From positions 172,258-236,257 of the forward strand of contig NZ_GG700631.1 in NCBI RefSeq assembly GCF_000162875.1: 64,000 nucleotides of DNA. Reading direction: 5' to 3'. The position numbers and the translations under genes were made by a program. Shown piece by piece: positions 42,733 to 64,000 of this stretch. This DNA comes from Slackia exigua ATCC 700122. Lineage in GTDB: Bacteria > Actinomycetota > Coriobacteriia > Coriobacteriales > Eggerthellaceae. Positions within the stretch are counted from its first letter, which is position 1; the number at the start of each line of letters is the position of its first letter. Below the pieces are notes generated by a model. It searched no databases and had not been told where the DNA came from. It saw only the letters and a list, made by a program, of their open reading frames with translations.

Positions 42733-45700
42733 CTAACGCATGCGACGCCTCAGAGCAACGGCCCCACCCGCCACGAGAGAGGCACCGAGCATGACGCAGA
42801 CAGCAGGCAGAACATTCGTGGCGTCGCTGGTCCGAGGAATGGCCGAACCCTTCCTCTTGGTGTCGGGATGCGTCGACTTGGCGGAACCGTCGGGCTTGGA
42901 GCCGTCGGGCTTATCGGCAGAACCACCGGGCTTGTCCGTGCCGCTCGGAGGATTCGAAGGAGGCTTCGAATCGGGTGCGGGCGTCTTGGCCTTCTTCACG
43001 ACAAGCGTGCCGGAAGCGTAGGAGAAGTCGTAGTCGTCGGCAGCGCCGCCTGCGGGCGAGAGCTCGAAGGACCCCTCGGACGCAAGCGAGGCGGCGGGCA
43101 GGGGCGTGACGGCGGGAGCCGTGTAACCCGATGCCGTTGCGGCATCTTCTCCGCCGACGAATCCCGTAACGGACACGGCGTAGGCCGGGCTTCCGCCAGG
43201 CTCGACGGTCTCTCCCGCATAGGAGGCCGTGAGGGTCGCCTTACCTATGGACCAGGGAATGCTCATGGTGCTCGCACCGCCCCCAGGTCCGCGCAGCGCC
43301 GCCGCATAGGCGACGAGGCCGGCGCGCGCAGGAGCCCACTCGAGATTATCGGCATCGGCGATCGTGGCCGTAGCCACGTAATCGCCGGCGTGCGTCGCTT
43401 TCCAATCGCCGGAAAGCTCGTAGTCGTCGGAAGACGCGACGCCCTGCTGCTCGACGCCCGTGTAGGTCAGCCCCGACGCAGCCTGCGGACGAGCGACCTT
43501 CTTCTTGGCGATGGACCATGCGATATCGCGGCTCGCAGACTCATGCCCGTCGGCCCATACGTAGCCGGGCTTCAAGGTTGCCGTAGCAACGTAATCGCCG
43601 GCGTTGGTGGCAACCACATCGCCCGAGAGCTCGTAAGCCCCGCTCGTCGCGACGCCCTGCTGCTCGGCCCCCGTGTACGCCAGGCCCTCGATGGGTGCCG
43701 GGGCAGGAGCCTCGCCGGCAGGAAGCACGGTGAGCGTGCCGCCCTCGTAAGAGGCGAACTCGTAGTTGTCTGCCGAACCGCCGGACGCCTCAAGCTCGTA
43801 GGTGCCGGGCGCAAGCGTAGCGAGGTCTTCGTCCTCATGGCCCTTGACGGAAACCTTCGGCGCCTTATAGCCCTTTGCCGTGGAAGCGTCCTGCCCGCCG
43901 ACGAAGCCCGTCACCACGGAGTCGGGAAGCTGAGCGGATGCATCGCCGTAGGACATCTCCATGTCAGGCGCCTTCGCCGTCAGAGGCGCAGGCGTGATCT
44001 TGATGAGCACCAGCACGCCATCGGTCGTACCATCCTTCCAGGCGAAGTTGCCCCCCTCGGCAACAACGTAAGGAGCAGCGGCTGCAGGATACAGACTCGC
44101 GTCGTAGGGCACGAACCGTTCAGCTCTTTGACCTACGCCTTGCCATGCTTCATGAATGAAAGGCTTCTTGAGTGACAATCTATCGCGAAGCGCAACATTC
44201 TCACCGAAGTTGAGGTACGGAGCCAAATCGATATCCTCGCCCGTATAGACGATGCTCACCTCGGTGGGATTCACGACGGACTGCTCGACATCCACCGTGC
44301 GCGGCGCGATGTCGAAAGCTACCTGCTTATCCTCCGTCGTCCCATCCGACCAGGTGCAGCCTTCGATGAGGTGCAGCGTCGTCTCGTAGCTCCCCGCATT
44401 GACCGCATGCGTATTGACGACCAGATACCCCTCGCCCGCCTCGACGGCGTTGTGCTCTTGATTATCGAACACCACGTTCGTTCCCGTCGGAATAGGGATG
44501 GTCTTGTTGCTCGGAGCCGACGGTCCGGAGATGCTCCAATCGTACGTGACGGGCGCGGTCGTGCCGTCTGACCAGGCGTAACCATCCTTCAACGTGGCGG
44601 TGACGGAGTAATGCCCGGGATAGAGGGCCGACGCCTCGCCCGAAAGGGTGTAGCCGGTGTTCTCGTAAACAGGAACGCCCTGCTCGTTGCCGTTGTAGGC
44701 GAACGAGGTCTCCTTGACCGCAGGTTTGTTCACCACGGTCTTATCCGTGACGAGCACCGGCACGTCGACGGAATCCGACTTCTTCGTCGCGGAATCGTAG
44801 TCTATATCGAGCTGCATCGCGATATCTCCGTCGGGGGCAAGCGAATACTGAAGCGGCACGATATAAAAGGAACTGCCCTTGAAATTGTACGTCGCCGTGC
44901 CGGTCGTCTGGGCATCGGTGAGCTTCACGAGCATCTTGTGGATGCGCGAGTCCTTGCCGTTGTAGCCAGGCTTGTTCCAGAGCGTCTTGCCGGTCGCGGT
45001 CACGCGCTCGATCGCGGTGTCGGGCAAGTCGGTGCATGTCCCCGCGTCCTGAAGCGTGAAGGCGGGATTGTACACCCTGAGATACAGGTAACGGGTGCCG
45101 TCTTGCTTGACGATAAGCGTCGCGTTGTCCTTCATGGGGCTCATGGGCAGGCAATGCATGGGAAAGTTCTTGGGATCGAGGGTCTCGCCCGGAGCGAGCG
45201 TGTGCACCTCGACATCCACGCCGTAGTCGGGGGTGTTCTCATCGTAGACGCCGAACGGGTTGTTGGGGTTGTTCGCATACACCGTGACGTCGGAAAGGAT
45301 GGGATTGTACTTTCCCGGCATGGAGAAGTTCGCCGTCACCGTGTAGGTGCCGGGCGCAAGGGTTCCGGGTTCCTGCTTCGTGCCGGGCTTCTTCGCGGCA
45401 TCGAAGGCTGCCACGGCCTGGTCGAGGGCATCCTTGGCGGCGGTCAGGGACTCGGAGGTCGGGTTCTGCGCGGCAAGGGATGCCTTCGCGGCGGCGACGG
45501 CGTCTTTAAGCTCCTGCGCCGCGGTTGAAGTCACCCATTGCGCATCGGGAGAGATGTCGGAGCCGTCGGCGGATTCGGCCACGCTCTCGAGATCTGCCTG
45601 CGCGGCATCGATGGATGCCTGCAAGGCTGCCTTGGCCTTATCGAGGGCGTTCGCCTCGATCGTGTATTCGATGGACTTGGGACCGGTCGTGCCGTCGGCC

Positions 45701-46785
45701 CACACGTAGCCGTCCTTGAGCGTCGCGGTTGCGGTATGCACGCCGGCATCGGCGGCCTTCTCGCCCGTCAGGGTGAAGCCTTGGGTACCCTTGCCCATAA
45801 GGACGCCCGTCTGCTCGGACCCGTTCGAGACGAGCCCTTCGACAGCCTTGGGCGTATTCACGACGATCCTGCCCTGCTCAAGCGCGGGAGCCGCCGTCGT
45901 GTCGCCCGTCCTGACCGCGCTGCCGTAGTCGATCGCGAGCTGCAGGGCGATATTCCCGTTCGGGGCGAGCTCGATGTTCAACGGCACCGCATAGAGCTTG
46001 CTGCCCTTGAAGTCGTAGGTCTTGGTGCCGGCAGTCTGGGTTTCGGGAAGCGTGAGCGCGACCTTATGGATGCGGCTGGTCCTGGCATTGTAGTTGCCTT
46101 CCCATATGCCGCCGCCACCCCAATCGGTAGGCGACACGCGCTCGACGGCCGCATCGGGCAGCGCGGCGCAGGTGCCGAGGTCCTGCAACGTGAAGATCGG
46201 ATTCGGGAAGGGAACGAGAAGCGTGGCCTTGCCGTCGGTTCCCACATAGAGCGTCGCGTTGGCGCTGACCGGAACCTGCGGAATCGCGTTCTGCACGTCA
46301 AGCCCCACGTTCTCGTCGATCGTCGGGCCGAAGGGATTGTGCTGCGTGGTCGGATAGACCGTAAGCCCCGGAATCAGGGGATTGTACTGCCCCGGCATGC
46401 TCACGTTGGCCGTGACCGAATAGGTTCCGGGCGCGAGCGTCGCGGCCGGGGCGCGCAGGATGCCTGCGGATGCCGCCATGCCTGAAGCCTCCTCGCTCAG
46501 GCTGCCGTCCTGGTTGCCGGATGCCGCTCCCGCAGCTTCGTTCGCACCCTCGTCAGCAAGTTCGTCGGCAGGTTCGCCGGCGTTTTCACCCGCCGAGTCC
46601 GCGCCGTCCTGCCCGTCGGCGACGCGTGCCGCCGCCACGCCCGACGACGGTTCCGTCCCCGCATCCGCCCCTGGCGAAGCGGATGCAGGGGTCGGCACCA
46701 TCGACACGGCCAAGACCACGGCGAAGACCGTGGCAAGCAGCCCGTCGAGGAATCTGCCTCGTGCCTTCATGCCCATGAGAGCCAT
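42733..46785 (-). CDS. Large wall-anchored surface protein with duplicated beta domain, FIVAR and Ig-like (MBG) repeats
   Basis: 1350 residues. A signal peptide (about 1-37, ending SASA) is followed by an acidic linker. Two copies of a domain of about 175 residues (about 116-292 and 475-663) share TLAPGTY-x-VTA-x-x-SMPG-x-YNP, NPF, FTLQD-x-GTC, RIHK, and Y-x-FKGS-x-x-Y-x-VPL. I cannot name it; its size and strand pattern recall NEAT-type binding domains but this is unproven. A FIVAR domain (about 379-466) lies between them. Residues 680-1270 are Ig-like repeats with DGY-x-W-x-DGT and MBG units (DNYEFASYEGGTLTV, DDYDFSYASGTLVV). The C-terminus is a sorting signal variant, IPRTSD, then a hydrophobic span and RRRMR. 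It sits between two zinc uptake operons. Confidence 0.88.
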   Translation of the reverse strand: MALMGMKARGRFLDGLLATVFAVVLAVSMVPTPASASPGADAGTEPSSGVAAARVADGQDGADSAGENAGEPADELADEGANEAAGAASGNQDGSLSEEASGMAASAGILRAPAATLAPGTYSVTANVSMPGQYNPLIPGLTVYPTTQHNPFGPTIDENVGLDVQNAIPQVPVSANATLYVGTDGKATLLVPFPNPIFTLQDLGTCAALPDAAVERVSPTDWGGGGIWEGNYNARTSRIHKVALTLPETQTAGTKTYDFKGSKLYAVPLNIELAPNGNIALQLAIDYGSAVRTGDTTAAPALEQGRIVVNTPKAVEGLVSNGSEQTGVLMGKGTQGFTLTGEKAADAGVHTATATLKDGYVWADGTTGPKSIEYTIEANALDKAKAALQASIDAAQADLESVAESADGSDISPDAQWVTSTAAQELKDAVAAAKASLAAQNPTSESLTAAKDALDQAVAAFDAAKKPGTKQEPGTLAPGTYTVTANFSMPGKYNPILSDVTVYANNPNNPFGVYDENTPDYGVDVEVHTLAPGETLDPKNFPMHCLPMSPMKDNATLIVKQDGTRYLYLRVYNPAFTLQDAGTCTDLPDTAIERVTATGKTLWNKPGYNGKDSRIHKMLVKLTDAQTTGTATYNFKGSSFYIVPLQYSLAPDGDIAMQLDIDYDSATKKSDSVDVPVLVTDKTVVNKPAVKETSFAYNGNEQGVPVYENTGYTLSGEASALYPGHYSVTATLKDGYAWSDGTTAPVTYDWSISGPSAPSNKTIPIPTGTNVVFDNQEHNAVEAGEGYLVVNTHAVNAGSYETTLHLIEGCTWSDGTTEDKQVAFDIAPRTVDVEQSVVNPTEVSIVYTGEDIDLAPYLNFGENVALRDRLSLKKPFIHEAWQGVGQRAERFVPYDASLYPAAAAPYVVAEGGNFAWKDGTTDGVLVLIKITPAPLTAKAPDMEMSYGDASAQLPDSVVTGFVGGQDASTAKGYKAPKVSVKGHEDEDLATLAPGTYELEASGGSADNYEFASYEGGTLTVLPAGEAPAPAPIEGLAYTGAEQQGVATSGAYELSGDVVATNAGDYVATATLKPGYVWADGHESASRDIAWSIAKKKVARPQAASGLTYTGVEQQGVASSDDYELSGDWKATHAGDYVATATIADADNLEWAPARAGLVAYAAALRGPGGGASTMSIPWSIGKATLTASYAGETVEPGGSPAYAVSVTGFVGGEDAATASGYTAPAVTPLPAASLASEGSFELSPAGGAADDYDFSYASGTLVVKKAKTPAPDSKPPSNPPSGTDKPGGSADKPDGSKPDGSAKSTHPDTKRKGSAIPRTSDATNVLPAVCVMLGASLVAGGAVALRRRMR

Positions 46786-56040: not shown

Positions 56041-58482
56041 ATGAATCCAGTTAAAGCGTTCCGCAGCAAAAACATCGCCATCGACACCGCTGCGCGCAGA
56101 GAAGGCTTCTGCGCGCATGCCGAACTCTTCTTCGTGCTCGACGGCCATGCGCTGTTTTCCTATGACGGCCGCGACGTCAAGCTCGACAAGATGGGCCTTC
56201 TCGTCATCAACCGCGGCACCGAGTACCGATACGAAGGATCGAGCGATCTCATCCTGGCCTCTCTCGAGCTGACGGGCACGACCTTCGAGACCGCATGCGA
56301 CGGGATGCTGAGAACGATCGAATGCGACAGCAGCCGCGAAGACGACGAGCACCACGCCCGTCTTCGCGCGCTCCTCCGCCAGATGATAGTCGACCAGGAC
56401 TTCGTACGCGACGATGAGTCGACGTATGCGCGTCTGGTGTTCGACTACTATTCTCTCTACTACAAGCTTTTAGAGACGCTCGTCGAGTTCTTCATGCCTA
56501 ACGACCAGCCTCTTGGAAGCGAACGGAACAACCCTCCGAAAGACAGCGACCGCAAGGAGCGGATCGAGCGTTACCTCGACATTCATTACGCCGAGACGAT
56601 CACCCTCGATGCTCTTGCCGAGGAACTCTACTTGTCGAAAGGCTACCTGTCACGTTTTTTCACGAAGAGCTTCGGAGTGAACTTCAACCACTATGTCAGA
56701 GAGCTGAGGTTGAAGCGGGCTCTGAACGAGCTTCTCTATACGGACAAGCCCATAACCCAGATTTCGTTCGACAACGGCTTCAGCGGATCATCGTATTTCA
56801 ATCGAGCCTTCAAGAAGAAATACGGTGCGAGTCCCTCGGAGATGCGTGCCGAGGTTCGCGCGAAAGAACACCGCGAGCAGATGAGCGCCGAAAGCAGGAA
56901 AGCCCTCGACAATCGCATAAGCCGCATCCTGGACGGAAAGACGGAGCCTTTCGATTTCGCATGCGAAAGCCAGACATCCGAGTGCGACGTGCGCGAAAGC
57001 CTTCCGATCAAGCACTGTTGGAACAGCGTCATCAACGTCGGAAGCGCCGCGGATGTTCTGAAGACGGATATCCAGGAGCACATCATGATGCTGCACAAGC
57101 GTATCGGCTGTGCATACATCCGCTTCTGGAATCCCTTTTCCAGCGAGCTCCTGCTCGATGCGAACGAGACCATGGACGCGTACAACTTCATACGGCTCGA
57201 CCAAATATTCGACACGTTGCTCAGCAATGGGATGAAGCCGTTCATCGTGCTGGAACCGAAGGCCGAACGAATCAATAAAACGCTTGATGACGTGATTTTC
57301 AGATCCGACCAAAAACGTTCCCTCGGAAGCGTTGAGTCGTGGAGCAGCATCGTCGTCGCGTTCATGAGGCACGTGACGCAGCGATACGGCGTTGAGGAAG
57401 TCGAAGATTGGATACTCGAGATACCCTTCGATGGATACGTCGTCGACGGCGAGCATCCCCTGGACGGGTATTGCAGCCTGTTCGGGATAGCGCAGCGCGT
57501 CGCACGGGAATACGCGCACGGCATGAAGGTCGGCGGTCCGTCCCTCCCTTCGATAGATGCGAGGATCAAGGGAATCCTCATGGGGCTGCGAGAACGCGGC
57601 CACGAACCGGATTTCGTATCGACGGTCAGCTACGCCTATGAGAAGAAGGAGGATGCATACCGATACTTCAAGCGAAGCGGAGACGAAGACTACCTGATCA
57701 AAGACATCGAGAGGATGGAACAGGCGATCATCGAAACCGGCATGCGCGATGTCCCGTTGTATCTGACCGAATGGAACGAAACCGTCGTCGACCGAAACTG
57801 CCTCAACGATTCGTGCTACCGCGGAGCGTACATCGTGAAGAGCATGATCGAAATCGATGGACGCGTTTCATTGGCGAGTTACTACAGCGGCACCGACCGA
57901 AGAACGGATTTCTTCGATTCGCACCTGCTTCTTCAGGGAGGGAACGGGCTGGTCACCAGGGACGGGATCATGAAGCCGGCGGGATTCGCCCTGACTATGC
58001 TGGGAGGGCTTGCGCACTACCTCGTCTCATCGGGCGACGGCTTCATGGTGACGACCGACCGCAGGCGCAATTACTACATCGTCGCCCATAACAAGAGGAA
58101 GCTCAGCTACCACTACTTCAAAACCGAGGAAGATTCCATCGCCAAAGAGCTGCTGTCCCAATGCTTCGAAGACGATACGGTCATCGAGCGGACTATCGTG
58201 CTTGCAGGTATGGAGAACGGCAGCTACCAGGTTCGGACACGGCGGGTCAACTCGCATGTGGGAAGCGTTCTCGATCTTTGGCGAGAGCTGGGATACAGCG
58301 ATGCCCTCTCGAGCGGCGACGTACGCTACATCGAACACGTCTGCGAGCCGCATCTTCAGATCGAAACCGTGGAAATCCGAGAGGGACGCATGCCCTTGAA
58401 ACTCGTCATGGAGCCTAACGAAATCGCGTTCATGGAAATCAGATGCCAACCCGCGCACCATCACGAGCCGAACCGAGCATGA
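56041..58482 (+). CDS. AraC-family regulator fused to a GH39-like domain
   Basis: 813 residues, no signal peptide or membrane span. An N-terminal cupin-like sensor (about 1-100, FCAHAELFFVLDGHALFSYDG) is followed by a helical linker and two AraC helix-turn-helix motifs (about 175-280; LDALAEELYLSKGYLSRFFTKSFG and ITQISFDNGFSGSSYFNRAFKKKYGASPSEM in parts). Residues about 315-800 look like glycoside hydrolase family 39. The nucleophile is kept (Glu577 in LYLTEWNET), but the acid/base motif W-x-x-E-x-WNEPN reads W457-ILEIP-FDGY, so Asn-Glu became Phe-Asp. It is probably a sugar-binding sensor rather than an enzyme. No sugar-uptake genes adjoin, so its targets lie elsewhere. Confidence 0.85.
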   Translation: MNPVKAFRSKNIAIDTAARREGFCAHAELFFVLDGHALFSYDGRDVKLDKMGLLVINRGTEYRYEGSSDLILASLELTGTTFETACDGMLRTIECDSSREDDEHHARLRALLRQMIVDQDFVRDDESTYARLVFDYYSLYYKLLETLVEFFMPNDQPLGSERNNPPKDSDRKERIERYLDIHYAETITLDALAEELYLSKGYLSRFFTKSFGVNFNHYVRELRLKRALNELLYTDKPITQISFDNGFSGSSYFNRAFKKKYGASPSEMRAEVRAKEHREQMSAESRKALDNRISRILDGKTEPFDFACESQTSECDVRESLPIKHCWNSVINVGSAADVLKTDIQEHIMMLHKRIGCAYIRFWNPFSSELLLDANETMDAYNFIRLDQIFDTLLSNGMKPFIVLEPKAERINKTLDDVIFRSDQKRSLGSVESWSSIVVAFMRHVTQRYGVEEVEDWILEIPFDGYVVDGEHPLDGYCSLFGIAQRVAREYAHGMKVGGPSLPSIDARIKGILMGLRERGHEPDFVSTVSYAYEKKEDAYRYFKRSGDEDYLIKDIERMEQAIIETGMRDVPLYLTEWNETVVDRNCLNDSCYRGAYIVKSMIEIDGRVSLASYYSGTDRRTDFFDSHLLLQGGNGLVTRDGIMKPAGFALTMLGGLAHYLVSSGDGFMVTTDRRRNYYIVAHNKRKLSYHYFKTEEDSIAKELLSQCFEDDTVIERTIVLAGMENGSYQVRTRRVNSHVGSVLDLWRELGYSDALSSGDVRYIEHVCEPHLQIETVEIREGRMPLKLVMEPNEIAFMEIRCQPAHHHEPNRA

Positions 58483-58550: not shown

Positions 58551-59255
58551 TCACTCCAGCAGATCGGTTAGGTTCAGCAGCGCGCATACAGGTCGGCTCC
58601 CCCCTGCCGCCACGCAGCATGCAGCGCTGTATCCTTCAGCAACTGCAAGTTCATGGAGAAATCCCGCATCGCCGAGCCCCTCGGCACGCAAACAGCCGTT
58701 TTCGCTACGAATGCCGATGCGCGGCAACCTGTCGTCGATACCGCACCCGACCATCTTCGCGTAGCTTTCCTTCATGGTCCATAGGCGATACAGAAGCCTG
58801 ATACGATCGTCCGCATCCTCCTCACTGGATATGAGCCGCCGTTCTTCTTCGGAGAAATACCGATGCGCCACCGTGAGAATCGCCTCGTCTTCACGGTAAT
58901 GCTCTTGCACGTCGCAGCCTATCGATACCGTCGAAAACCCGCACAGCGCCCATTCTCCGCTATGGGATATGCTGAAGTGCAGATTTTCCCTTTCCGGAAA
59001 AAACGGCTTGCCTGCATCGTTCAACGCGACGTTCAGCCTTCCTTCGGCGTAATCGTCTCCGGCTCCTGCAGCCTTAAGCCCATGCAGCCAGAGCACCGAA
59101 GCAGCAAGCGCCTGCCGACGTTCCGAATCGACCTTTGCGGACTCCACCCTCCTCTTCCTCGACTCGGGAATCATCCTATAGAAGCAGGAAAAGAGCCCCA
59201 CATCTTCAAGCGGGACCGTACGTGCCGCATAGATCGTCGTGCTGCATTCACCCAT
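58551..59255 (-). CDS. 4'-phosphopantetheinyl transferase, Sfp type
   Basis: 234 residues, the length of Sfp-type enzymes, which move phosphopantetheine from CoA to carrier proteins. NLHFSISHSGEWALCGFS, SIGCDVQEHYR (magnesium site; the usual Ile-Asp appears as Cys-Asp), YFSEEERRLI, and LWTMKESYAKMVGCGI (WxxKE-S-x-x-K) are in order. No peptide synthetase or polyketide gene is nearby, so it may activate a carrier protein encoded elsewhere. Its ATG overlaps the stop of the DUF1097 gene by 8 bp. Confidence 0.9.
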   Translation of the reverse strand: MGECSTTIYAARTVPLEDVGLFSCFYRMIPESRKRRVESAKVDSERRQALAASVLWLHGLKAAGAGDDYAEGRLNVALNDAGKPFFPERENLHFSISHSGEWALCGFSTVSIGCDVQEHYREDEAILTVAHRYFSEEERRLISSEEDADDRIRLLYRLWTMKESYAKMVGCGIDDRLPRIGIRSENGCLRAEGLGDAGFLHELAVAEGYSAACCVAAGGSRPVCALLNLTDLLE

Positions 59256-59751
59256 TCAGCCTCCTCAGCAAGGCTTTCTGGAAAACATCGACGCCGGCGC
59301 CGACATACCATACGCCCACCAGCATCGACATACCTATTTGAATGGAGAGGCTGCCGAGTTGGGCAGCCCCGCACGGCGCCATGACGGTAAGGCCGATGGC
59401 CCAGCCGCAAAGCCAGGCAGGAGTGAAGATCAGCTTCGGAAATAGCGCGCCGATGATAACCGCAAGACCGCCCAGAACGAAGAGCAAGATGAAGGTCTCG
59501 AGGCTTTCGTTCAGCGGCATCCAGGCCATGAGCAGAATGGCAAGAACGGCCCATGCGTCGCCGAGAAGAAAACCGACGGAGATCCTGGCCGCATCGGAAA
59601 CCCTGTTCCCGTTCGTCACGTAAAGGCCGGCGCAAATCAGCGCAACCGCACCGGTGGCCACCCCGATATGCGGGGCGGCCACCGCCCAGAGCGGCGGAAG
59701 CAGGGCGATTCCAAGCGCCAAGGTCAGGGTGTTTTTCCACGTCTCGCTCAT
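59248..59751 (-). CDS. DUF1097 family membrane protein
   Basis: 167 residues with about five membrane spans; the domain pattern (NTLTLALGIALLPPLWAV, RISVGFLLGDAWAVLAI, PKLIFTPAWLCGWAIGL, MLVGVWYVGAG) is that of DUF1097. These proteins are small inner-membrane proteins without known function. It starts 18 bp after the [FeFe]-hydrogenase stop and overlaps the transferase gene by 8 bp, so it is probably cotranscribed with the redox operon. Confidence 0.8.
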   Translation of the reverse strand: MSETWKNTLTLALGIALLPPLWAVAAPHIGVATGAVALICAGLYVTNGNRVSDAARISVGFLLGDAWAVLAILLMAWMPLNESLETFILLFVLGGLAVIIGALFPKLIFTPAWLCGWAIGLTVMAPCGAAQLGSLSIQIGMSMLVGVWYVGAGVDVFQKALLRRLNG

Positions 59752-59769: not shown

Positions 59770-61521
59770 CTATCGCATGGCATAGGTCGTATGCAGAAGG
59801 CGATGCGCCCTCTCGCTCCCAGGCTTTTCCAGGTACTCGTCGTACAGAAGCTTGATGTACGGGTTCTCGTGCGACTTCCTGACCTCGCTCTCGCTGTCGT
59901 TGCCGTACAGAGCGGCGGCACGCGCTGCGGGAACGTCGGCCAGCCTGCGCGCATACGCGCCCTGATGGGGCTGCCCGCCGCCGTTGACGCAGCCTCCCGG
60001 GCATGCCATGACCTCGATGAACTGGTAGTCCGCTTCTCCGTTCTTGACTTTGGTCAGCAGCATGTTCGCATTCGCAAGCCCCGACACGACGGCCACGCGC
60101 ACGTCAGCGCCGTCGATATCGACCGACGCCTCCTTGATGCCCGCCATCCCACGCACGGCAGCGAACTCGAAAGCGTCGAGTTCTTTGCCCGATATCGTTT
60201 CGCAGGCGGTGCGCAATGCGGCCTCCATCACGCCGCCCGATGCACCGAAGATGATGCCGGCTCCGGTGCCGAAGCCGAGCGGATGGTCGTATGCCGTGGC
60301 AGGATTCATGGCCTCCAGCTGGATTCCCGCATCCTTGAACATTTTGGCAAGCTCGTTCGTCGTCACGACGATGTCGACATCAGGCACCCCCGCGCCGTCT
60401 TCGTCATTCCTCGTGCACTCGAACTTCTTCGCCGTGCACGGCATGACGCTCACGGTCACGATATCCTCTTTATCGAGGCCCTCCCTTTCGGCAAGGAAAG
60501 ACTTGACGATCGCCCCGTGCATCTGATGCGGCGATTTGCATGATGAGATGTTATCGAGCATATCGGGATAGAAATGCTCGGCGTACTTGATCCAGCCCGG
60601 GCAGCACGAGGTGATCATCGGAAGCACGCCGTCATGCGCAATGCGGTCGACGAGCTCGTTCGCCTCCTCCACAATCGTGAGATCGGCGCCGAACTTGGTG
60701 TCGAACACCTTGTCGAAACCGAGCAGCCTCAAGCCTTCGGCGATCCGGCCCTCCACGTCGATGCCGAGAGGGAACTCGAAATCCTCGCCAAGGGCGGCAC
60801 GCACGGCAGGAGCGACCTGCACCGCGACATATTTCTTCGGGTCGGCGAGCGCCGCATTCACCTCGTCGATGCAGGTTTTCTCGACCAGCGCGCCCACCGG
60901 GCACACCGCCACGCACTGGCCGCAATTCACGCAGCTCGCCGCTGCAAGGCCGGACGGAGACGATGGCGCGATAGTCGCATCGAGTCCCGTTCCGGTGCAG
61001 GCTATGGCAGACACCGCCTGCATCTTCGCGCATACGTTCACGCACCTCTTGCACCTGATGCATTTGTTGTTGTCGCGAATCAGGACGACCGAAGACGTGT
61101 CGATCTCTTCGATGTTATCGTCCGGTATATCGGGCTCGTCGGTAAATCCGTAGTCCTTCAAGAGCGTCTGCAGCTCGCAGCTCGAAGAGCGCAGGCAGTG
61201 CAGGCAGTCCTTGTCGTGAACCGCAAGGATCCTGGAAAGCGCCTCCTTGCGGGCCTCCACGGCCTTCGGACTCATGGTCTCGATCTCCATGCCCTCGCCG
61301 ATTCTCGTTGTCGAGGCGTTGACCAACTTGCCATCTACTTCCGCAACGCATACGCCGGATTCATCGACATCCACGATGCCCTGAAGGTAATAAAGCGTCG
61401 GAATAGGATGATTCAGATACTCCTTCTTGAATTTCATGGTCTCAAAAGAGGCGTCTAGGACGGTCATGCCCTTTTCCATGGCATAATCGTAGCCATTGAG
61501 CTTTATATTCACGACGTTCAT
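59770..61521 (-). CDS. hydA: [FeFe]-hydrogenase, monomeric, with degenerate N-terminal ferredoxin domain
   Basis: 583 residues, CpI-like. The H-cluster motifs are intact: MITSCCPGWIKYAE (L1), VMPCTAKKFE (L2), MACPGGCVNGGGQP (L3). Accessory clusters: His-Cys3 at His102, Cys106, Cys109, Cys115; two [4Fe-4S] in CIRCKRCVNVC and CVNCGQCVAVCPV. The N-terminal plant-type [2Fe-2S] domain keeps its fold region but only one of the four cysteines (Cys58); the others are Tyr/Ser. Electrons must therefore enter at the His-Cys3 or [4Fe-4S] cluster. The ATG overlaps the flavoprotein stop (ATGA). No maturases (HydE/F/G) are in view. Confidence 0.96.
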   Translation of the reverse strand: MNVVNIKLNGYDYAMEKGMTVLDASFETMKFKKEYLNHPIPTLYYLQGIVDVDESGVCVAEVDGKLVNASTTRIGEGMEIETMSPKAVEARKEALSRILAVHDKDCLHCLRSSSCELQTLLKDYGFTDEPDIPDDNIEEIDTSSVVLIRDNNKCIRCKRCVNVCAKMQAVSAIACTGTGLDATIAPSSPSGLAAASCVNCGQCVAVCPVGALVEKTCIDEVNAALADPKKYVAVQVAPAVRAALGEDFEFPLGIDVEGRIAEGLRLLGFDKVFDTKFGADLTIVEEANELVDRIAHDGVLPMITSCCPGWIKYAEHFYPDMLDNISSCKSPHQMHGAIVKSFLAEREGLDKEDIVTVSVMPCTAKKFECTRNDEDGAGVPDVDIVVTTNELAKMFKDAGIQLEAMNPATAYDHPLGFGTGAGIIFGASGGVMEAALRTACETISGKELDAFEFAAVRGMAGIKEASVDIDGADVRVAVVSGLANANMLLTKVKNGEADYQFIEVMACPGGCVNGGGQPHQGAYARRLADVPAARAAALYGNDSESEVRKSHENPYIKLLYDEYLEKPGSERAHRLLHTTYAMR

Positions 61522-63299
61522 TCGGCCTCTCCTTCCGCGAAGAACGTTTCCGGGTCGAATTCATCCACATGGCCATCCGGAATCCGATAGCCCTGAGGCC
61601 TGACCGGGTATCTCCACATCGGGATATCCTCCGTGAACAGTTCCATCTCTCCGTCTTCGCCCTGTCTGATGTTGATCCACTTGAGCCAATGCGCGTTGTC
61701 GGGCTCCGGGTAGTCCTTGCGAAAGTGGGGATACATGATGCCGCGGCTTTCCGTACGCATCTCGGCCGAGCGATAGATCATCTCAAGGCAAAGAATCGTA
61801 TCGGCGGCCTCCAAGCACCTCGCAAGCGTATGCGGATCGTCGGCGGTCAGACGGGGGACGATCTCCTTCATCCTCTTGATGTCGCCGAAAACGTCCTGGA
61901 TCGCGTCTTCGCTCTTAAGAACGCTCTTATTGACGTCGAAGATATACCGCTCGATCGTGTCGTAGATGACTTTCGGGCTGCACCCGTTCGGACGATTCAG
62001 CGGCGCGTAGATCTTCTCCTTGCATTCGGCTATCTGATCGAGCTGCAGATCGTCCCATTCTGCAGCAGCCGCATAAGGAGCTATGCTGTCGCCGGCCATC
62101 ATGCCGGTCGTCGAAGCGTTTCCCAAGCCGTCGCCGCGCGTCCAGCCGAAATATGCATTGCCCTGCGTGGACACCTTTCCGGGGGCCCATAGGCCTTCCA
62201 CATCGGTTCTGATCCCGGCATCGACCTTGACCGGCTCCACCTGAAGCACCGTCTTGATGGTCGTCTCTGGCTTCGTTCCGATGTCTCCGAGGTTCATCGC
62301 CGTCTTCTTGAACACGAGCTCTTCCCAGGCAAGCTTGTCGCGGAACATGCGCTGGGTCGATTCGTCCATGTCCGTGCCGCCGATCATCTCACGGACCTCG
62401 TCGGGCTTCTCGAGATCGACCCAAAGCGGGCCGTTGCCAAGAGCGACTTCCTTCACCATGGCATCCACAAGCGCAGGCGTGACTTCCCATTCGAGATGCC
62501 CGATGTATTTCTGGGTCAGGTTCTCGCCATGCTTGTTGCGAATCATGTTGAATCCGCCGTAAATCGGGGTGTTGGTCTTCTTGAACACGACGTCGACCTG
62601 GGTGGAGAATTCCACGTTGCGCATGATCGCGCCCACACGGTACATGGCGCCGACACCCGTGCCGTACCCCATGAATTCAAGACCGATCTTCTTGAAGTGG
62701 CATCCCTGCGTGGCCATGGCCACCGCCTTCGCATGGAAGACCATGCACTCCATATGATCGGCATCGAACCCGATGGCGCCGATGACCTTCTTCGAGGCGC
62801 TCGTCAGCAGTTCGAAGACATTGACGCGGCTCATGAGGCGAATGCCGAGCTTCAACGCGAAATCGCGAAGCTGCTTGCATACGTCGAGCGAGACGCCGCC
62901 CATATCGAGCGCATCCGGGATGAACGGAAGAGGAGCGGCCTTGCCGTCGTCATCGCAGGACGTGATGACGCCGCAATGCCTCATGTAATCGAGGTTGTCC
63001 CGATGCACGACGAGATAATCCCTGAGGAATTCCTGGTCGTTCAGAAACGGCGTATGCGCGTTAACCAGATAGGCAAGGGCATGCTGCACGCCGTTGGGAT
63101 GTTTGGAAGTGGCGCGGATGCCGTTTCCTGCTTTCGTGGCCTGGCCGTTCCAGCCGATGACCCCCTTGTCGACAACCAGGATATCAAGCGATGGATCATT
63201 CTCTTTCGCCCTGATGGCAGTCACAAGTCCCGACATTCCTCCACCGACCACGAGGATGTCTGCGGTGTGAAGCGTGCCGTAATCTTCTACGTCGGCCAC
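61518..63299 (-). CDS. FAD-dependent reductase flavoprotein of the AprA/fumarate reductase superfamily
   Basis: 593 residues from a GTG start (AAGGGGG nine bases upstream). FAD binding: ADILVVGGGMSGLVTAIRAKE and LVVDKGVIGWNGQATKAGNGI. The C-terminal domain has WAPGKVSTQGNAYFGWTRGDGLGNASTTGMMAGD, the FAD-closing region of the AprA/FrdA group, and HWLKWINIRQGEDG. No signal peptide, so it is cytoplasmic, unlike the Tat flavoprotein at 25 kb. It is followed by the hydrogenase with ATGA overlap and preceded by a two-cluster ferredoxin 14 bp upstream, an AprA/AprB-like gene pair. The natural substrate (a sulfur, acyl or enoate compound) is unknown. Confidence 0.9.
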   Translation of the reverse strand: MADVEDYGTLHTADILVVGGGMSGLVTAIRAKENDPSLDILVVDKGVIGWNGQATKAGNGIRATSKHPNGVQHALAYLVNAHTPFLNDQEFLRDYLVVHRDNLDYMRHCGVITSCDDDGKAAPLPFIPDALDMGGVSLDVCKQLRDFALKLGIRLMSRVNVFELLTSASKKVIGAIGFDADHMECMVFHAKAVAMATQGCHFKKIGLEFMGYGTGVGAMYRVGAIMRNVEFSTQVDVVFKKTNTPIYGGFNMIRNKHGENLTQKYIGHLEWEVTPALVDAMVKEVALGNGPLWVDLEKPDEVREMIGGTDMDESTQRMFRDKLAWEELVFKKTAMNLGDIGTKPETTIKTVLQVEPVKVDAGIRTDVEGLWAPGKVSTQGNAYFGWTRGDGLGNASTTGMMAGDSIAPYAAAAEWDDLQLDQIAECKEKIYAPLNRPNGCSPKVIYDTIERYIFDVNKSVLKSEDAIQDVFGDIKRMKEIVPRLTADDPHTLARCLEAADTILCLEMIYRSAEMRTESRGIMYPHFRKDYPEPDNAHWLKWINIRQGEDGEMELFTEDIPMWRYPVRPQGYRIPDGHVDEFDPETFFAEGEAE

Positions 63300-63313
63300 G
63301 TCGTTTCCCCCTT

Positions 63314-63601
63314 CTATTCCTGGTCCAGCGCAATGAGGCCGGCGCTATATTCCAGCGGGTCGACCTGCAGCGGAGAAATGACCTGAATATCGATGACGCT
63401 ATTCAGGCAATCCATCTCGCACTGATAGCACAGCACGCAATCATCCGGATATCGAGGATAGGCATGCTCCGTGCCCGCATCCCACTGCCAGACGTCTTCC
63501 TGGCACCTCCGTATGCATCTTTTGCAGCCGCAGCAGCGGTCGACGTCCACGACGTAGCGCACGCTCTGCTGCTGGCCTTTGTTCTCGACGATGATTTTCA
63601 T
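63314..63601 (-). CDS. Two-[4Fe-4S] ferredoxin, AprB-like partner of the flavoprotein
   Basis: 95 residues. Two cluster motifs, CCGCKRCIRRCQED and CVLCYQCEMDCLNS, with an extended loop of about 20 residues between and a C-terminal arm (VIDIQVISPLQVDPLEYSAGL). The layout and the position directly before an AprA-like flavoprotein match the beta subunit of adenylylsulfate reductase-type enzymes. AAGGGGG precedes the ATG. It likely passes electrons between the flavin and the hydrogenase or ferredoxin pool. Confidence 0.9.
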   Translation of the reverse strand: MKIIVENKGQQQSVRYVVDVDRCCGCKRCIRRCQEDVWQWDAGTEHAYPRYPDDCVLCYQCEMDCLNSVIDIQVISPLQVDPLEYSAGLIALDQE

Positions 63602-63698: not shown

Positions 63699-64000
63699 TC
63701 AGTCATCCCACTCGAATCCATCCCACACCGGCTTGCCCGTATAGGTCTTGGCTTCCTCTTCGCCGCTCAGAACCCTGATCGCTCCGAAACCGAGCGCTTC
63801 CGTCTCGAAGCTGCCGGGATACACGTGCACAGGAGCGATCCAACCGACATACTCCTTGATCTGATCGCACAGCTCGCCGTCGTGGGCCATGCCTCCCGTA
63901 AGCAGGATGGCGTCGACCTCCCCCTTCATGGCGCCGGCCATCATCGCCGTCCACTTTCCGATGGAATACACCATGGTCCGATACACCAGCGCGGCTTTGC
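63699..64000 (-). CDS. buk: Butyrate kinase, C-terminal part
   Basis: About 99 C-terminal residues; the frame stays open past the window edge (preceding codons read KAAL). MVYSIGKWTAMMAGAMKGEVDAILLTGGMAHDG and YVGWIAPVHVYPGSFETEALGFGAIRVLSGEEEAKTY (quoted in parts) are the family's nucleotide-domain end, with the LTGG phosphate loop and the V-x-V-x-PG-x-x-E-x-EAL signature. It phosphorylates butyrate, or makes ATP from butyryl phosphate. The ferredoxin gene starts 97 bp later on the same strand. Confidence 0.9.
   Translation of the reverse strand, partial: KAALVYRTMVYSIGKWTAMMAGAMKGEVDAILLTGGMAHDGELCDQIKEYVGWIAPVHVYPGSFETEALGFGAIRVLSGEEEAKTYTGKPVWDGFEWDD

Follow-up and report, generated by a model that had tools for sequence, protein, structure and literature searches.

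In the sections of two papers available to us, the redox partners described for [FeFe]-hydrogenases are ferredoxin, NAD(P)H and cytochrome c3 (PMC8924675), together with formate dehydrogenase in CO2 reductases (PMC6288185). The available part of the latter source describes HDCR (HydA2-HycB-FdhF) as a soluble, NAD(H)-independent assembly of an [FeFe]-hydrogenase, small Fe-S subunits and a reductase (PMC6288185). Here we describe a 64,000-nucleotide stretch of the Slackia exigua ATCC 700122 genome (the whole stretch being called the window; contig NZ_GG700631.1, positions 172,258 to 236,257, forward strand) in which an [FeFe]-hydrogenase is encoded with a small ferredoxin and a flavin adenine dinucleotide (FAD) flavoprotein of the complex II superfamily. 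This trio resembles HDCR in its layout but has a FAD flavoprotein as the reductase in place of formate dehydrogenase; FdhF is absent among the scanned operon members, and the hydrogenase is longer at its N-terminal end, where the [2Fe-2S] site is dead; HydA2 of 7qv7 aligns from query residue 220 only. The closest solved relatives of the hydrogenase are instead the HydA1 subunits of 7q4v (E 1e-163) and 8a6t (E 1e-146), which we take to be the electron-bifurcating HydABC of A. woodii and T. kivui, but no HydB- or HydC-type gene occurs among the scanned operon members and three of the four [2Fe-2S] ligands are lost. The flavoprotein shares its fold with PAPS (3′-phosphoadenosine 5′-phosphosulfate) reductase from Methanothermococcus (8a8o, Z 42.6) and with AprAB, whose flavoproteins presumably also have a ferredoxin-type partner with two [4Fe-4S] clusters, but these differ from the trio in identity (about 20%), in family scores far below cut-off and in operon. 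A search of the open-access literature found no hydrogenase with a complex II-type flavoprotein partner, an absence that is itself weak evidence. The three genes lie on the minus strand in the order ferredoxin, flavoprotein, hydrogenase:

63314..63601, minus strand: small ferredoxin, 95 amino acids, two [4Fe-4S] sites (eight Cys), by motif scan
61518..63299, minus strand: FAD flavoprotein of the complex II/Apr/PAPS-reductase superfamily, 593 amino acids, GTG start, by domain scan
59770..61521, minus strand: group A [FeFe]-hydrogenase, 583 amino acids, by family score and H-cluster motifs

The gene order, the 14-bp spacing between ferredoxin and flavoprotein and the 4-bp overlap between flavoprotein and hydrogenase are as an earlier prediction from the sequence (hereafter the original prediction) had given them. 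Shine-Dalgarno-like purine-rich stretches precede all three starts (by eye), and the GTG start of the flavoprotein is consistent with the starts in its relatives. Counting the window, the trio is present at ten loci in six genomes, arranged as ferredoxin-flavoprotein-hydrogenase at six and as hydrogenase-ferredoxin-flavoprotein at four. Gaps range from -4 to 30 bp over the ten loci and from 2 to 30 bp at the nine outside the window; the relatives' start codons were picked from open frames and these gaps may shift slightly. Because the trio recurs at nine other loci and in two gene orders, its linkage goes beyond chance. All eight ferredoxin cysteines are invariant across the 20 aligned ferredoxins, and MFS transporters (eight of nine) and PucR-type regulators (six of nine) accompany the other trio loci. 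The proposed functional unity of flavoprotein, ferredoxin and [FeFe]-hydrogenase is upheld by the ten co-occurring loci and by a [2Fe-2S] loss common to the ten linked hydrogenases, and as far as sequence can tell the functional linkage of the trio is well supported.

Within the family of the window the flavoprotein occurs in one of 138 genomes, that of the window itself, as it does in one of 12 genomes of the genus and one of 296 drawn from the class. The gene order thus does not recur across Eggerthellaceae, where the original prediction would have had it sought, yet the nine loci elsewhere refute its uniqueness. A scan of public genome contigs yielded six flavoprotein loci, one of them (77% identity) in a metagenome-assembled genome (MAG) of Eubacterium sp. 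from roe deer rectum (G296; a genus in Bacillota); the other five, at 28-30% identity, are in Desulfovibrionaceae MAGs, where a GltD-like gene adjoins the flavoprotein at three loci (L010, L011 and the second copy in L012). Single-sequence searches of the 296 class genomes (E 1e-60), the 12 genus genomes (E 1e-40) and 392 genomes of the order of G296 (E 1e-40) matched only the window genome, G296 and the distant G337, and a profile search was needed for the rest. Among 299 genomes of the G296 family, this profile search found at least 21 flavoprotein copies in 11 genomes with at most four scored per genome; throughout, genome searches scored only the top 3 to 9 candidates of each genome, and copy numbers are lower bounds. 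With neighbours mapped by BLAST in the fetched flanks, nine of the 21 copies occur with a small ferredoxin and a hydrogenase, in five genomes (G296 and G876 with three each, G927, G707 and G870). The query alignment itself contains four of the 21 as rows, and the 17 new copies comprise six that are hydrogenase-linked, nine that are linked to a hydrolase described below and two with neither partner. Sampling 398 genomes across the phylum gave, besides G296 and G337, two distant copies without a hydrogenase nearby; downstream of the L096 copy lies a weak PF18089 match (19.6 versus 22.7 bits). On plasmids, a search with the flavoprotein gave 67 records, all below 60% identity, and among the 20 matches listed (about 24-27% identity) the named features are fumarate/succinate or FAD-binding flavoproteins.

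The hydrogenases themselves carry a second signature of this association. The window enzyme scores above the group A cut-off (TIGR02512, 494.6 versus 405.95 bits) and narrowly below that for the NADH-dependent group A6 (NF040763, 749.2 versus 765 bits), and the motifs TSCCP[GA]W, MPC[TS]AKK and M[AS]CPGGC, which we take to be those of the H-cluster, are intact in all ten linked hydrogenases. At the four N-terminal [2Fe-2S] ligand positions the window enzyme reads Y, S, C, S and the linked group Y/N/Q, S, C, S/A, three of four cysteines being lost in each of the ten; in all ten unlinked enzymes of that length class the four positions are C, C, C, C. These unlinked ten are the second hydrogenase of the window's own genome (on another contig, adjoining a NuoF-like/GltD-like fusion) and nine from four of the five other trio genomes. 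In those five genomes, 26 PF02906 matches divide into nine flavoprotein-linked, nine unlinked of the long type and eight left out (L080 and L083, aligned and without His-Cys3 ligands; L081, L084, L085 and L086, which start like other types; L087 and L088), and the three of G296 are all linked. All ten linked enzymes retain the His-Cys3 ligands; in the unlinked set, which was picked for them, their conservation is by selection. A hydrolase-linked flavoprotein lies about 10 kb from L082 on the same contig. In trimeric hydrogenases the surface [2Fe-2S] cluster presumably serves the NAD(H) module, and loss of the site sets the linked group apart from enzymes that feed such a module; this loss would fit an electron route that reaches the small ferredoxin by way of the remaining [4Fe-4S] clusters. 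No conclusion was drawn from the hydrogenase structure model (predicted local distance difference test, pLDDT, 75.6), in which residues 48-54, the region of the lost ligands, score below 50. The same loss bears on whether a stable complex forms at all, as the hydrogenase might be a free ferredoxin-type enzyme that shares the operon while the small ferredoxin serves the flavoprotein alone. In a sister clade (see below), ferredoxin and flavoprotein occur without hydrogenase, so that the pair can use another electron donor; however, the [2Fe-2S] loss is confined to linked hydrogenases, and tight linkage persists across two families and in several paralogues within a genome, leaving the no-complex explanation improbable.

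The flavoprotein bears only a remote likeness to AprA or fumarate reductase. It combines FAD_binding_2 and Succ_DH_flav_C domains, and its structure model (pLDDT 86.6), the only model used in both fold searches, matches 8a8o, the PAPS reductase alpha subunit that is also its best PDB match by sequence, about as well as E. coli FrdA (Z 42.6 and 41.0, about 20% identity). The AprA/AprB naming was tried and is ruled out by family cut-offs. Because its scores lie far below these cut-offs and the FrdA fold match is about equal, 'AprA-like' is a label of fold and not of function; of the AprA/fumarate-reductase-like and AprB-like labels in the original prediction, the likeness of fold is retained and the Apr identity is not (aprA, 48.9 versus 641.75 bits; aprB, 28.2 versus 135.65). 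An H2-dependent reductase of sulfonucleotides (APS/PAPS type) or other sulfur compounds would agree with 8a8o as best match in sequence and fold and with aprB as the nearest NCBIfam model of the ferredoxin; set against these scores, the low identity and the absence of any named sulfur-pathway gene among the scanned operon members or trio neighbours, we consider such an enzyme very unlikely. An H2-dependent fumarate or simple enoate reductase, acting through a soluble complex II-like flavoprotein, has the domain pair and the FrdA match in its favour, but the best score in the fumarate reductase/succinate dehydrogenase families is 155.3 versus 587 bits (NF006131) and the FrdA alignment is interrupted between FrdA residues 230 and 361 (chain count). 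Of the E. coli FrdA residues presumed to bind dicarboxylate (His232, Arg287, His355 and Arg390), the equivalents of the first three fall outside the printed alignment, and the position of Arg390 is Trp386 in the profile alignment, a tryptophan invariant in all ten linked flavoproteins. We regard this alternative, too, as having little probability.

A better guide to function may be the flavoproteins that lack a hydrogenase. Ten of the 21 copies cluster with, or are fused to, a protein of the DAPG (2,4-diacetylphloroglucinol)/phloretin-hydrolase type; they belong to the same flavoprotein family and share the small ferredoxin with two [4Fe-4S] sites, but their partner is a PF18089 C-C hydrolase and no hydrogenase is present in the fetched flanks. 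Two of the 21 have neither a hydrogenase nor a hydrolase partner. PF18089 was confirmed in all ten proteins scanned, eight of them separate cluster hydrolases and two located near hydrogenase-linked copies, and also in the G337 fusion; the L059 fusion is assigned from BLAST (62%). In the flavoprotein tree the hydrogenase-linked copies form one clade (100/99), and the hydrolase-linked copies make up a second group (91/90), to which one copy lacking both partners attaches (98/96); the tree carries warnings of long branches for L058, L062 and L012, and the apparently broken L061 flavoprotein was excluded. The possibility, raised with the original prediction, that the flavoprotein belongs to a characterised family with a different partner was not borne out, as its nearest hydrogenase-free relatives are this hydrolase-partnered sister clade, which to our knowledge is not a characterised reductase family. 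The window flavoprotein nests among copies of the G296 family, nearest to that of G927 (84% identity). Because of this nesting and the absence of the flavoprotein from the rest of the window's own family, the trio has likely spread by horizontal transfer between families, and between phyla if the Eggerthellaceae assignment of the window holds.

Other genes were observed around these loci. Flavoprotein and hydrolase domain form a single chain at L024:9426-11867 (813 amino acids) and L059:8177-10633 (818 amino acids), natural fusions that may help to reveal what the flavoprotein acts on. Nitronate-monooxygenase-like proteins are encoded near hydrolase/flavoprotein loci (L053:5768-6739, L055:5673-6668, L057:9691-10662, L060:10634-11617 and L062:11252-12229), where the L053 copy has PF03060 and the other four were recognised by likeness of their first residues only; a second reductive step is a possible role. 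Proteins of the URO-D family (PF01208), which includes corrinoid methyltransferases, are found near both types of flavoprotein cluster (L047:11751-12752, L052:159-1283, L052:15771-16802, L053:820-1806 and L057:5736-6764), and possibly serve in O-demethylation of methoxylated phenolics.

In the window genome a longer same-strand operon, which begins outside the window and whose upstream part was read from the L003 stretch past the window edge, includes the trio in its downstream part. The original prediction, correct in the order and spacing of the trio and supported in its functional unity, omitted this operon and so overlooked an acyl module of thiolase, acyl carrier and kinase. The full order is phosphotransacylase, thiolase, a zinc-ribbon/acyl carrier protein (ACP), butyrate kinase, the trio, a DUF1097 protein and a phosphopantetheinyl transferase, with gaps of 18, 9 and 6 bp from phosphotransacylase to butyrate kinase and then 97 bp to the ferredoxin:

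63699..64000, minus strand: 3′ end of the butyrate kinase gene, ending 97 bp before the ferredoxin gene (TIGR02707)
L003:6957-8072: whole butyrate kinase gene, 371 amino acids (TIGR02707)
59248..59751, minus strand: DUF1097 protein (PF06496), starting 18 bp past the hydrogenase stop
58551..59255, minus strand: 4′-phosphopantetheinyl transferase (PF01648), overlapping the DUF1097 gene by 8 bp

The kinase exceeds its family cut-off (358.3 versus 289.1 bits), its substrate specificity being predicted from that assignment. The zinc-ribbon protein carries a C-terminal ACP domain that is doubled in two copies and, in L021, scores just below the Pfam cut-off; the phosphopantetheinyl transferase is a candidate activator of this domain. 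Ser217 of the ACP domain and Cys104 and His380 of the thiolase, which we take to be the carrier and catalytic residues, are kept in all five copies compared. Solved relatives of the thiolase include acetyl-CoA acetyltransferases, benzoylsuccinyl-CoA thiolase and PhlC, and the pairing of a thiolase-like protein with a zinc-ribbon (ChsH2/DUF35-type) protein is as in the PhlC/PhlB acyltransferase, the BbsAB thiolase and the Ltp2/Sal-DUF35 aldolases; the operon differs from all of these in the C-terminal ACP on the zinc-ribbon protein and in the phosphotransacylase and butyrate kinase of the cluster.

This acyl module and the trio tend to occur in the same genomes. In the 299 genomes, thiolases scoring at least 856 bits were found at six places (two each in G876 and G296, one each in G927 and G870), so that four of the five trio genomes have one and the 294 others have none, and 17 further places score at most 493 bits. 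Four of the six are query rows and hence there by construction (the query was from G296, G876 and the window); without G296 and G876, two of three trio genomes and none of 294 others have the high-scoring thiolase (Fisher p 7e-5), where the split between 856 and 493 bits was set after the gap was seen and the same 299 genomes are assumed for both searches. On a separate contig G927 encodes phosphotransacylase, thiolase, zinc ribbon/ACP and kinase in the window's order (80, 90, 66 and 81% identity), and acyl-ACP thioesterases occur near the trio loci L048 and L052. Other sister thiolases adjoin Gfo/Idh oxidoreductases (L125, L126 and L127), two also with xylose-isomerase-like proteins; both protein types are known from polyphenol C-deglycosylation and also from ordinary sugar clusters. 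The gene content of the module suggests catabolism of an acylated compound.

Divergent from the operon, upstream, are genes for a TM1266-type regulator, HydE, HydG and HydF, each scoring above its family cut-off; an H-cluster maturation set is therefore at hand. The operon has a GC content of 57-61%, slightly below that of the window (62.2%), and in L097 a relative of the DUF1097 protein (55%) is encoded some 7 kb away from a distant copy of the flavoprotein. Past the window edge, beside hydF, L003:15596-17869 (minus strand) encodes an Old-yellow-enzyme-type flavoenzyme of 757 amino acids with what looks by eye like a Tat signal; it is a relative of BaiCD and of bilirubin reductase that scores below both cut-offs. 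Within the window, the product of 56041-58482 (plus strand; 813 amino acids) combines an AraC-type regulator with a family 39 glycosyl hydrolase domain and resembles staphylococcal AryK, scoring far below the AryK cut-off (169.6 versus 850). The open frame at 42733-46785 (minus strand) spans 1350 amino acids, includes MBG and YtkA-like domains and may encode a large surface protein. Rfam at its gathering threshold gave one tRNA in the window.

Taking trio and acyl module together, we give about an even chance to an H2-linked cytosolic flavin-reductase complex that would reduce a phenolic substrate beside an ATP-yielding thiolysis of an acyl group. Here the hydrogenase would exchange electrons with the FAD of the flavoprotein through its own [4Fe-4S] clusters and the small ferredoxin, and H2 oxidation would drive reduction of the substrate, either an enone or a ring of the phloroglucinol or resorcinol type. 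The reduction may let an acyl side chain be cleaved off, which the thiolase and the zinc-ribbon/ACP protein would take up as a thioester on ACP or CoA, and which phosphotransacylase and butyrate kinase would convert to the acid and ATP. Hydrolysis would break the C-C bond in the sister clade; the window operon may instead use a thiol for the cleavage and harvest the ATP. We infer the physical complex, the substrate class, the direction and the acyl-ACP intermediate: the link between the sister clade and phloretin/DAPG-type C-C hydrolases hints at a phenolic substrate, and H2 uptake is favoured because the scanned operon members include no NAD or bifurcating module.

The main rival is the same complex run in reverse, in which a substrate such as a secondary alcohol or a CH-CH bond is oxidised by the flavoprotein, the hydrogenase vents H2 and the thiolase cleaves the resulting ketone in a manner resembling beta-oxidation. 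Flavin-linked oxidations are usually too positive in potential for H2 formation without bifurcation, which counts against this direction together with the lack of an NAD or bifurcating module among the scanned operon members. Nonetheless, dehydrogenation followed by thiolase, phosphotransacylase and kinase would make an energy-yielding oxidative fermentation, and [FeFe]-hydrogenases dispose of reducing equivalents as H2 in anaerobic metabolism, according to the available sections of one source (PMC8924675). We consider the reversed direction a real possibility, albeit not a probable one.

Several observations weigh against H2-driven reduction of a phenolic compound by the trio. The direction of electron flow is not readable from sequence, and an aromatic substrate is not known for any of the trio genomes here. 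The MFS transporter, PucR regulator and DAPG hydrolase were not found in the window or L003, so that the phenolic substrate is argued from relatives; PF18089 was likewise unmatched in the window's own genome, in a search where control genomes also gave no match. Thiolase, zinc ribbon, ACP, phosphotransacylase and kinase occur without hydrogenase in L123 and L128 (and in L124 without a listed ACP), and the acyl module therefore need not act on the product of the flavoprotein. In the hydrogenase tree a single origin of the linked enzymes is weakly supported (71/63), and the linked hydrogenases of L021 and L023 are without some 30 residues found in the others. Finally, the two trees disagree at L047, where the hydrogenase groups with the window type and the flavoprotein with that of L022, a conflict that suggests partner exchange between paralogous trios.

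A complex II-superfamily flavoprotein joined to a [2Fe-2S]-less hydrogenase would add a new partner type for [FeFe]-hydrogenases, and the trio would then be a multi-subunit [FeFe]-hydrogenase of that kind. In its fullest and most tentative form, the H2-linked reductase would activate polyphenols at the expense of H2, dearomatising or saturating phloroglucinol- or resorcinol-type compounds, before an ACP-based thiolytic C-C cleavage that conserves the energy of the acyl bond in ATP, the whole having spread by transfer; this we put forward as possible rather than expected. If true, it would provide both a direct sink for H2 and an energy-conserving fermentation of polyphenols, where phloretin/DAPG hydrolases merely hydrolyse the acyl bond. 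An H2 sink has been proposed for catechin-amended peat microcosms, in the part of the report available to us (PMC12203004), and if H2 is consumed with plant phenolics the trio would be a molecular candidate for a sink of that kind, making it testable which organisms could divert H2 from methanogens.

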